Shown: positions 16,803 through 19,307 of the stretch, piece after piece
Layout of the letters: every line of letters starts with the position of its first letter
Position numbering within the stretch: position 1 is the first letter of the stretch
Virus record (IMG/VR): IMGVR_UViG_3300009159_000397
Span: 1-20,907 of that record
Reading direction: 5' to 3' (one strand)
Origin: a virus
DNA: 20,907 nucleotides
The notes under the pieces: model-generated
Database searches by the model: none
What the model saw: only the letters and a program-made list of their open reading frames with translations
What the model was told of the DNA's origin: nothing
Made by a program: the position numbers and the translations under genes

Positions 16803-19307
16803 ATGTACAGAAAACCCATAACTGCCCTACCTAATGCCGGGGAATTGACCGGCGATGAGTTTATCATAGTTGTTCAGAATGGTAAAACAACAAAAACTAC
16901 AATTAGCGATGGTGTCTTAACTTCGGGAAATCCTCCTGGTCCGACAGGCCCAACTGGACCTACTGGCGCCGCGTCAGTGGTGACTGGCCCTACTGGTCCT
17001 TCCGGAGCTGCTGGCGCAGCCTCTACCGTTACAGGCCCAGCAGGGGCTACAGGGGCAACCGGAGCCACGGGAGCGGCATCTACGGTTACCGGCCCGACTG
17101 GCGCAACTGGTTCTACTGGTGCTACTGGACCAACAGGTGCGACCGGCGCGACCGGCGTGGTCACTGCCACTGACCCGATCGTGTACACCTCGGGCACACA
17201 GACCGTGTCAGCCAACTCAACTTCACTGCGGACCCTGTCCCGGCAGGCCGCGACAAAACCCTTGCGCCGCTGGCAGCAAGCCTTTGCTGATGCCCGTTAC
17301 GGCAACCTGTACGGGCTTGGCACTGCCTCAAGCCGCACCGCTGATGTTCTGGTGATCGGTGACTCAATCACTGAGGGTTACGGCTCAAGCACTTCGGGTG
17401 CTGGCACCACATACGTTAGACGGCTGGCTGCGTTGCTTGCTGAAACCGCAAACGCTGATGGGCGCACTGGTGTCTACGTTCCCTGTTCAACTTTTGACGG
17501 GCTGATACCTGACCCGAAATGGACAGCTGCTGCCGGGTCTCCGACTGAACAGGTCTATGGTCTTGGCCGGCGCGCTCAGGGCATCCCTGCGGGCGCTGAG
17601 ATGCGACTGACGGTGACTGGCACCAGTGCCACCGTGTTCTACCGTCGAGTGAAGATCTTCCCGTTTCCGTACAACAATGGTGCGATCAGGATTCGTGCGT
17701 ATGCAGGCACCGGCATTGGTGGCACTCTCCTGTTCGATCGCACTGAAGACACGTTTGACAACAGTTTGCCTGCTGGTGGCCACATTGTTGTGGCTCAAAC
17801 CATTCCTGTTGCTGCGTGGGGTGCTCGAGGAACTGTGACTTTGCGTGTCACTCAAGCGACCTCGTCGGACGGCAAGACAGGCAGTGTGATCTGCGAAGGT
17901 GCCTACATCCATGACGGCACCGAAACTATTGGCACACGTGTCTGGTGTTCCGGCAAGGTCGGTTCAACATTTGCCACTTGGAATGACTCAATCGACATAG
18001 CTCTGAACGACGATTGGGCTGCGATTATGCGGTCCCATTACACAATCGCTGATGCAACAGCGTCACCAGTTTTTAATACCGCTGTCGGCTATTTGAAACC
18101 GTCTCTTGTTGTGATCGCTCTTGGCTCTAACGAAACCAGCACAACAACAGCAAACATTGCAACAGCTATGGCAACACTTGTGGGCAACATTCAGAACACT
18201 CCGGGTGGCGCCCTCAACTTGCCTTCGTTTGCGTTCCTAATAAACCCAACGAACGGTTCAAAAACTGATGCGTACTGGTCACCGATCGTGACCGCCATGT
18301 ACGCAAAAGCCGAGGAGCTCGGCTGCGCTATTTGGGATTGGTCCGACCTGTTCGGCTCGTACTCAAGCGCTACTGGCGATCCGTTCGGGTGGTCTGCTGA
18401 CAACCTGCACCCATCCAACCCGGGCCACATTGCACTTGGCGACTTCGCTGCACAGCAAGCGCTAGCCGGCGTCTCCGGATTGGCCTCAATTGTTGCAGGC
18501 CCGACCGGAGCTACTGGCGCAGCCTCCACTGTCACGGGTCCGAGAGGAGCTACCGGCGCTGCTTCTATCGTCACAGGCCCAACGGGCCCGGCTGGTGTCA
18601 CAGGCCCCACCGGAGCGACTGGAGCAGCCTCTACCGTCACAGGACCGACCGGAGCAACTGGTCCAATAGGTTCAGCAGGCGCAGCCTCTACCGTGACAGG
18701 TCCCACGGGCGCTACTGGCGCAGCTTCTACTGTTACAGGTCCTACAGGGGCTACTGGCGCAGCTTCCACCGTTACGGGCCCAACCGGAGCGACAGGCGCA
18801 GCTTCCACCGTTACGGGCCCAACCGGAGCGACAGGCGCAGCTTCCACCGTTACGGGCCCAACCGGAGCGACTGGCGCAGCCTCTACTGTAACAGGTCCCA
18901 CGGGCGCTACTGGCGCAGCTTCCACCGTTACGGGCCCAACCGGTCCGACAGGCCCGACTGGATCGCAAGGGAGTCAGGGAGCAGCCGGAGACTGGACGAC
19001 GGCACAGACTGTCGCTACTCCTACGATCACATCAAATGCTTACGCTGTCTCCGGAGACGACAGCGGAAAACTGCTTCTTCTAAACAACAGCACCACAGCA
19101 ATGACTTTGAATGTAAATACCGGTATTGGTCTTACTGCCGGTCAAAGAATCGACATGGTCCAAACAGGCTCAGGCCAAGTGACTGTCGCCGGAACTGGAA
19201 CAACAAACGCAACTCCGGGGAAGAAGTTCAGAGCGCAGTATTCCGCTGCCACACTTATCTGCACTTCCACGAACAACTACGTTCTTGTAGGTGATTTGAG
19301 TGCCTAG
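16803..19307 (+). CDS. Large collagen-like tail fibre with an internal SGNH esterase
   Basis: 834 residues, with GTAGGT before the ATG. Residues 1-42 are a conserved-looking fibre head ([15 protein letters not shown]). Residues ~45-120 are collagen-like triplets. Residues ~121-560 hold an SGNH/GDSL hydrolase: Ser188 in GDSITEGYG, Asn443 in LGSNET, Asp533 and His536 in DNLHP; ~255 residues lie between the Ser and Asn blocks and include a beta-sandwich that may bind sugar. Residues ~562-730 are a second collagen block with 13-residue repeats; ~730-834 form a terminal domain related to the end of the first gene in the window. The enzyme should remove ester groups (for example O-acetyl) from a host surface glycan during adsorption. 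The hydrolase part is GC-richer than its neighbours, suggesting module transfer. Confidence 0.88.
16935..17160 (+). repeat. First collagen-like repeat block of the large fibre
   Basis: GPT/GAT/GAA triplets with STVT breaks, coding for about 75 residues before the esterase. Copies of GCGTCTACGGTTACCGG-like DNA occur here with many silent differences, so this block is older or more diverged than the 18681-18953 array. Confidence 0.75.
18681..18953 (+). repeat. 39-bp tandem repeat array, seven units, coding for [13 protein letters not shown]
   Basis: Units begin at 18681, 18720, 18759, 18798, 18837, 18876 and 18915, each 39 bases and in frame. The units at 18759 and 18798 are identical and the one at 18837 differs from them by one base (ACA to ACT); the outer units carry more silent changes, and the last unit ends GPTGPTG. 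Near-identity of the central copies points to recent slippage or unequal exchange. Confidence 0.85.

Follow-up and report, generated by a model that had tools for sequence, protein, structure and literature searches.

The tail fibre gene located at 16803–19307 of the virus record IMGVR_UViG_3300009159_000397 appears to have recently gained, by horizontal transfer, a module encoding an Ape1-like SGNH O-acetylesterase. According to this reading, to which we assign a probability of roughly three in four, the recipient was the modular fibre of a large myophage, and a lineage of GC-rich siphophages was the source of the module. The reading of a recent gain is based on the confinement of the identity to the module, its nesting, its base composition, the in-frame joints, the intact active site, and the predominance of silent changes.

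Organization of the fibre gene

The window, i.e. the whole stretch of DNA that was analysed, corresponds to this 20,907-base virus record, a metagenomic contig, and contains the portal, major head protein, and tail sheath genes of a myophage (PHROG profiles). The open reading frame (ORF) at 16803–19307 on the plus strand is present as an open frame of 834 amino acids (aa), in which an anchor (aa 1–44), a collagen-like block (aa 45–113), the module (aa 114–558), another collagen-like block (aa 559–728), and a tip (aa 729–834) follow one another. The product matched both PF13472 (GDSL/SGNH hydrolase; E-value 3e-12, 47.7 bits against a cut-off of 32.9) and PF01391 (collagen, Gly-X-Y repeats; 35.5 bits against a cut-off of 27.2), which confirms a preliminary description of the sequence that had placed an esterase between two collagen blocks. 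An NCBIfam scan of the module, tip, and anchor yielded no match above cut-off. The features of this region are as follows:

14155..16797, plus strand: conserved upstream neighbours, comprising the tail sheath and two small genes (profile matches: phrog_279, tail sheath, and phrog_20284); the order is kept in L007, L008, L009, and L012
16803..16934, plus strand: N-terminal anchor of the fibre, aa 1–44, native to the myophage lineage as judged by blastp of aa 1–48 to sister slot proteins
16935..17141, plus strand: first collagen-like block, aa 45–113, with native base composition (PF01391; GC content at third codon positions, GC3, of 0.362, the backbone level)
17142..18476, plus strand: putatively imported module, aa 114–558, consisting of the final collagen triplets, a short linker, and the SGNH esterase
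17364..17366, plus strand: catalytic Ser188 in the GDS motif, block I (10/10 covering rows of the alignment A8, which has 11 rows in total)
17523..17954, plus strand: beta-sandwich within the SGNH domain, about aa 241–384, with approximate limits (strand-rich in the model, mean pLDDT 80)
17961..17963, plus strand: likely block II Gly387 (column invariant in 11/11 rows of A8)
18129..18131, plus strand: Asn443, block III (invariant in 11/11 rows of A8)
18399..18410, plus strand: Asp533 and His536, block V (in A8, His in 10/10 and Asp in 9/10 covering rows, with Asn in L062)
18477..18986, plus strand: second collagen-like block, aa 559–728, partly a 39-base tandem array (18678–18953)
18987..19304, plus strand: C-terminal tip, aa 729–834, a module also present on other fibres of the phage group
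19300..20874, plus strand: next gene, whose first 11 residues were compared with the gene after the tip-bearing fibre located at 102 kb in G001

In the last comparison, 8 of the 11 residues are identical, which is not significant (E-value 0.22), and the gene order is the same. Tip-like ends are found on at least two fibre genes of the window and perhaps on a third, the candidates being those at 3–428 (39% aa identity), 454–1275 (31% aa identity), and 18987–19304. A gene for a family 2 glycosyltransferase (1516–2583) resides in the structural gene cluster of the window, and G001 has a corresponding gene in this position. Comparison of the window sheath and tip with isolate phages gave no match.

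Source of the module

Four contigs (L002–L005, with GC contents of 57.2, 58.1, 57.3, and 62.1%, respectively) were found by scanning IMG/VR with the esterase. When the whole window was compared with these contigs by blastn, all four gave a single match each, at approximately 17142–18476, with nucleotide identities of 91% (L002 and L004) and 76–77% (L003 and L005). In ungapped comparisons of the same segment, L004 shares 91.0% of the nucleotides and 94.6% of the amino acids with the window, and L005 and L003 share 75.7 and 75.0% of the nucleotides, respectively. The esterase segment is likewise the sole blastn match of the window to the records G003 (91.4%) and G004 (76.9%), and the 190-kb sister myophage G001 has nothing in common with G003 or G004 by blastn. 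The sequences are thus mosaic in the sense that one domain is alike and the rest is not, i.e. 91% nucleotide identity in 17142–18476 and no further blastn match. It had been anticipated that close relatives of the enzyme would occur in unrelated phages, and this is what was observed: the module is 91% identical in nucleotides to that of siphophage-like contigs, and the anchor shares 87.5% of its amino acids with that of the 190-kb sister. Close relatives of the whole protein, which the preliminary description had named as contrary evidence, were not found in scans by module, tip, and neighbour genes.

These contigs are regarded as putative siphophages because the nine G003 proteins scanned (of 23 picked frames) include a tape measure protein and a tail terminator, in addition to head, portal, terminase, and endolysin proteins, and no sheath. 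In the siphophage contigs, the esterase is preceded by a collagen stretch and followed by a non-collagen domain. G003 and G004 are 76–85% identical in matching stretches totalling about 16.4 kb (G004 being 19.7 kb in length), and their esterases are 76% identical, which agrees with vertical descent in this group. Because identity among the siphophages is about equal in the esterase and in the other matching stretches, these phages are the likelier home of the module. L046 encodes an esterase with 66% aa identity, carries the same segment just downstream, and contains an integrase gene, being the only one of the five records tested in which an integrase was found.

In a protein tree of eight rows (seven of them different), the window, L004/L002, and L003/L005 were grouped with L046 outside (support 95/97), the order within the group remaining ambiguous. 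A nucleotide tree separated the window, L004, and L002 from L003, L005, and L046 with a support of 100/99, and the same six sequences analysed as a protein tree gave just 77/76. Between the modules of the window and L004, dN is 0.0375 and dS is 0.289 (dN/dS 0.13), and the changes on the window branch comprise 27 silent and 11 replacing ones.

It is conceivable, if unlikely, that a third source (a phage or a bacterium) fed both groups or that the module moved from myophages to siphophages. The nearest relative still differs from the window at 9% of the nucleotides, and the numbers of changes are similar on both branches (38 and 42), which would suit such alternatives. However, divergence among the siphophage esterases parallels that of their genomes, the GC contents of these esterases are near those of their own contigs, and the segment just downstream is common to the siphophage esterases and L046. 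In addition, when bacterial and archaeal genomes were scanned by pattern for esterase relatives, 246 pattern matches but no relative were obtained, and a bacterial source of the module was rejected on this result. The module seems to have been taken fairly recently from an unrelated virus.

Active site and predicted fold of the esterase

All residues characteristic of SGNH enzymes are present, i.e. Ser (block I), Gly (block II, recognized by an invariant column), Asn (block III), and Asp and His (block V), and Ser188, Asn443, Asp533, and His536 are located exactly where the preliminary description had placed them. Loss of the catalytic residues in relatives had been regarded as evidence that would speak against the preliminary interpretation, but almost every row of A8 retains them, and all 11 members of A8 match an SGNH profile at an E-value of 0.1 or better.

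A structure model predicted from 11 sequences has a pLDDT of 80; a model predicted from 5 sequences (pLDDT 39) was discarded. The former matched the peptidoglycan O-acetylesterase Ape1 across both domains (4k3u, Z 26.8 over 313 residues; 8gkd, Z 25.2), and the next other enzyme was matched with Z 15.2 over 195 residues. The predicted model has the two-domain layout of Ape1, i.e. an SGNH domain with an inserted carbohydrate-binding-like beta-sandwich, and the structural alignments to Ape1 show 13–18% identity. Sequence comparison does not single out Ape1, because the profile of A8 matched 8gkd with an E-value of 0.024 and other SGNH enzymes scored higher. The model thus points to an Ape1-like fold, by which the substrate is not fixed. 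Among the viral models matched by fold, the best named ones are proteins of Arthrobacter, Gordonia, and Rhodococcus phages, followed by those of Klebsiella and Proteus phages.

We consider it quite unlikely that the domain has lost its enzyme activity and been kept for adhesion as a glycan-binding lectin. The fibre context, the inserted carbohydrate-binding-like domain, and the absence of the block V Asp from L062 are compatible with a lectin, but Ser, Gly, Asn, Asp, and His are all kept in the window and the changes are mostly silent. Moreover, two SGNH tail fibres of Klebsiella prophages are active esterases according to the available part of PMC13123978.

The recipient slot in related myophages

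Four further myophage records, G001 (L012), G005 (L009), G002 (L008), and G006 (L007), emerged from searches for sequences related to the sheath and to the gene beside it. The same type of anchor is located directly after the same genes in all four, and blastp of aa 1–48 gave identities of 87.5% (G001), 54% (G005), and 50% (G002). The segment 16670–16967 is 79% identical to G001 by blastn, and the matching backbone stretches of the two phages are 69–80% alike in nucleotides.

The contents of the slot behind the anchor differ among the five myophage records: an SGNH domain in two (the window and G002), collagen only in two (G001 and G005), and a separate anchor frame in one (G006). The slot fibres of G001 and G005 (1283 and 1600 aa, respectively) consist of collagen with short non-collagen islands and contain no SGNH domain. 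The slot of G002 holds a short collagen stretch followed by a distant SGNH domain (33–38% aa identity), and the SGNH domains of the window and G002 are of two unlike kinds. The earlier proposal that the fibre is a slot for swappable enzyme modules gains support from these different contents at the same position. In G006 (L007:10653–11657), anchor and collagen fibre are encoded apart, the former by a frame of 83 aa and the latter by a separate gene, the contig ending soon after; anchor and spacer can therefore be split or fused.

The tip of the window fibre shares 59% of its amino acids with the terminal part of a short collagen fibre residing at a different locus of G001 (102 kb), and 39% with the fibre end at 3–428 of the window. 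The window gene thus unites an anchor and a tip that correspond to two loci of G001. The second collagen block shares 73–85% nucleotide identity with G001 collagen DNA and has no significant match in G003 or G004, and AASTVTG-type units of the first collagen block are present in sister phages but not in the G003 and G004 fibres. Because everything past the anchor, including the tip, differs from G001, the module was not cleanly inserted into an otherwise unchanged gene. G001 also contains 10 tRNA genes across the record and a tmRNA gene (L037:9798–10188, minus strand) with a predicted 23-residue tag ending in ALV, which is listed as ‘not identified’ by ARAGORN.

Joints of the module and route of exchange

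The 5′ joint of the module lies in the final collagen triplets and the 3′ joint right after ALAGVS, and both junctions are in frame. The longest words that the first collagen block has in common with each of four collagen stretches of siphophages are 11–14 bases in length, and those shared between the second collagen block and three post-esterase siphophage stretches are 7–9 bases. In a control for the 5′ side, in which the window backbone was compared with siphophage collagen (200 draws per contig), the mean was 6.8 and the maximum was 10 bases. Collagen was found upstream of the esterase only, and none downstream, in the siphophage fibres examined. Flanking repeats had been proposed to provide ready homology for exchange. 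Because the shared words are short and there is no siphophage collagen 3′ of the esterase, recombination between repeats would be a weakly supported joining route as far as the known relatives are concerned; the true donor could differ from these relatives in its homology at the joints.

It is very unlikely that the gene is an assembly artefact in which fibres of a siphophage and a myophage were fused via similar collagen repeats. Such repeats are hard to assemble, as seen in the window, which starts in one, and in G001, both ends of which lie in them; the window stems from a metagenome, and the scans by module yielded no other contig with these joints. Nonetheless, both junctions are in frame, the siphophage fibres examined have no collagen past the esterase, and the shared words (11–14 bases on the 5′ side and 7–9 bases on the 3′ side) are shorter than the usual assembly word sizes.

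Base composition and codon usage

The GC values of five sequence lines that had been counted by hand were reproduced (0.533, 0.517, 0.600, 0.383, and 0.383). The shift in composition deduced from them was confirmed by GC3 and codon usage, whereas the raw GC content turned out to be confounded, being highest in the collagen blocks (0.66, compared with 0.57 in the esterase). The 66% GC of these blocks is misleading because it is an effect of amino-acid composition, GC3 being at or near the backbone level there. Raw GC was therefore dropped as evidence of foreign origin and replaced by GC3 and codon usage.

GC3 is 0.364 in the 16 backbone genes (range 0.295–0.396), 0.362 in the first collagen block, and 0.564 in the esterase; the second collagen block (0.453) and the tip (0.466) are somewhat higher than the backbone. 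Sliding windows of 431 backbone codons reached a maximum GC3 of 0.413, and the value of the esterase was never reached when backbone codons were drawn at random 10,000 times (z 9.1). In codon usage, the esterase is closer to the siphophage record G003 than to the window backbone (+0.27 bits per codon), whereas all 16 backbone genes fit the window codon usage better than that of G003 in leave-one-out comparisons (−0.15 to −0.71). The idea that there was no foreign origin and that the high GC content merely reflects a Gly/Ala/Thr-rich fibre protein, as it does in the collagen blocks, is almost certainly wrong in view of the GC3 (0.564, z 9.1) and codon usage of the esterase and its 91% nucleotide identity to otherwise unlike phages (blastn). 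The ratio of GC-to-AT changes to reverse changes is 20:9 on the window branch and 19:12 on the L004 branch; because the excess is similar on both branches, amelioration adds no support to the gain and does not refine its timing.

Exchange within siphophage fibres

As far as the beginning of the collagen stretch, L062 and L003 share 96.5% of their nucleotides, and their C-terminal parts are 90.5% identical (96% between L062 and L005), but their esterase cores gave no nucleotide match. A Pfam phage tail fibre repeat (PF03406) is located at the 3′ joint of L062. Similarly, L060 shares the N-part and upstream DNA of L005 (88% nucleotide identity), yet carries another esterase. The occurrence of near-identical flanks with very different esterase cores implies that the slot exchanges modules in siphophage fibres too.

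Slot contents were counted only at loci with a detected fibre N-part or C-part, i.e. 15 of the 89 loci (among which L059 and L091 belong to a single contig and L002 is nearly identical to L004), and the other loci were dropped. The N-part was found in 11 of the 89 loci, accompanied by a window-type esterase in 5 (including L016, which is cut by the contig end, and the nearly identical pair L002/L004), other esterases in 2, and no SGNH domain in 4 (including L138, which is also cut by the contig end). A Pfam scan of L112, L133, and L138 detected collagen only, in L138, and L102, which was found via the C-part, contains collagen and no esterase. In a local profile search, SGNH domains were present in 2 of the best 80 of 574 relatives. 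Several fibres with the same N-part have a small head domain replacing the esterase (L112:2947–3531, L123:8017–8589, and L133:7953–8537), and those of L112 and L133 gave no Pfam match.

In L061 (positions 1–400), a locus with an overall GC content of 39.7%, the first 370 bases are 96.5% identical to the esterase of a siphophage with a GC content of 65.5% (L060:4635–5001), and past these bases the GC content drops to 45%. A possible second transfer (L060/L061) was set aside as unproven, the sequences being located at contig edges.

Host

All isolate phages with related enzymes infect Arthrobacter, Gordonia, or Rhodococcus, one such host being Arthrobacter sp. ATCC 21022. This applies to all four records (three phages) with relatives of the window enzyme, at E-values of up to 1 and, for two records, of only 0.2, and to all 20 records, some of them duplicates, with relatives of the L060 enzyme. 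WhiB was identified in 3 of 12 distinct related records, many of which are fragments, namely G001 (two copies), G003, and G013; it is absent from the window fragment and from the other 9 of the 12 records tested, many of them short. Among 14 control genomes, the WhiB cut-off was passed in Corynebacterium glutamicum alone (one of the two that ring).

As evidence against an actinobacterial host, the nearest isolates to the window portal are Moorella, Bacillus, and Acinetobacter phages (26–34% identity), and the 19 portal-matching records are, by organism name, of Halorubrum, Acinetobacter, Haloarcula, Halophage, Moorella, and Bacillus, with no actinophage. The siphophage terminase is about 34% identical to those of Arthrobacter, Rhodococcus, and Gordonia phages, among the matches listed, and its 2047 matching records include some of Streptococcus and Escherichia phages. 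Scans of genomes for a host found none. The phosphoesterase gene was also tried as an indicator of the siphophage host, and it led to nine genome loci with 44–56% identity, labelled Pseudomonadota (2), uncultured bacterium (2), Bacteroidetes, Caldimonas mangrovi, Burkholderiaceae, Piscirickettsiaceae, and a cyanobacterial bin; these mixed taxa do not support Actinobacteria. Overall, a common actinobacterial host of both phage groups is likely, and phages with the window-type fibre probably infect actinobacteria.

Comparison with known systems

The shuffling of fibre domains is already known, and Tetart 1998, Haggard-Ljungquist 1992, and Smith 1998 reportedly deal with phage fibre exchange and phage collagen. 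What is new here is that an internal two-domain enzyme module has apparently moved between a siphophage and a myophage group, with the slot filled differently in relatives on both sides; a literature search of open-licence papers found no report of an internal-enzyme-module exchange of this arrangement.

Tail fibres and tail spikes are the only proteins for which recent mosaicism across families or lifestyles is reported in the available part of PMC10684548, which also names a fibre with an SGNH domain. As in the cases described there, a fibre domain is >90% identical between otherwise unrelated phages, but the unit in the present case is an internal enzyme module between collagen blocks, and the slots of relatives are empty or otherwise filled. 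The main text of that paper makes no mention of collagen. In the collagen-repeat fibres known from phages that all infect one species, as in the window, the variable domains are set apart by collagen-like repeats. The variable region of these fibres clusters mostly by host strain and not by phage group and, unlike the module described here, is a purported host-range determinant rather than a known enzyme.

Ape1 of Neisseria, as far as it is described in the available text of PMC6174289, has the triad Ser80, Asp366, and His369, and residues 104–221 form a CBM35-like domain. The model predicted here shares with Ape1 (4k3u and 8gkd) the two-domain fold, the spacing of three between Asp and His, and the carbohydrate-binding-like insert; in contrast, Ape1 is a periplasmic enzyme and not part of a phage fibre, and only 13–18% of the residues are identical in the structural alignments. 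SGNH esterases borne on fibres, as in the window, are also found in Klebsiella prophages and in gp63.1 of Escherichia coli phage G7C; glycan deacetylation is shown for the latter and proposed for the former in the accessible portion of PMC13123978. In contrast to the probably actinobacterial hosts considered here, the hosts of these phages are Gram-negative, and the two modelled Klebsiella fibres have the domain in a C-terminal brush rather than flanked by collagen blocks (PMC13123978, same portion).

The Planktophila phages E7 and F5 are freshwater actinophages with a variable island that contains a tail fibre and two collagen-like proteins, and whiB serves as an actinophage marker in the available text on them (PMC10202952). 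Their collagen-like fibre genes reside, as in the present case, in a hypervariable region whose content is ascribed to horizontal transfer, but these are 39-kb phages for which that text identifies no enzyme module or donor.

Proposed mechanism and implications

In the mechanism that we propose, the anchor would tie the fibre to the tail, as suggested by its conservation beside the sheath gene, and the collagen-like stretches would be spacers with globular modules strung between them. The module (17142–18476) would have arrived, recently in evolutionary terms, from a lineage of GC-rich siphophages whose fibre it was already part of, at a time when both phages may have infected one actinobacterial host. 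Joining by microhomology or by a non-homologous route, followed by selection for in-frame fibres, would be the least certain step. The enzyme may strip O-acetyl groups off a wall or surface glycan, by which the receptor would be reached or held.

These results suggest that fibres of this kind offer sockets for exchangeable enzymes. Because the donor side, the recipient side, and unfilled relatives are all visible in this cross-group exchange, it becomes testable how, and how often, phages trade receptor tools. The results also place an Ape1-like fold in phages probably infecting actinobacteria, in which, to our knowledge, wall O-acetylation as a barrier to phages has been little explored. More tentatively, the collagen-like stretches may act as a common socket in unrelated phages that infect the same bacteria, and a pool of Ape1-like wall deacetylases may circulate between large myophages and siphophages, some of which are perhaps temperate, given the integrase of L046; such a pool would set the types of wall acetylation that can be infected.
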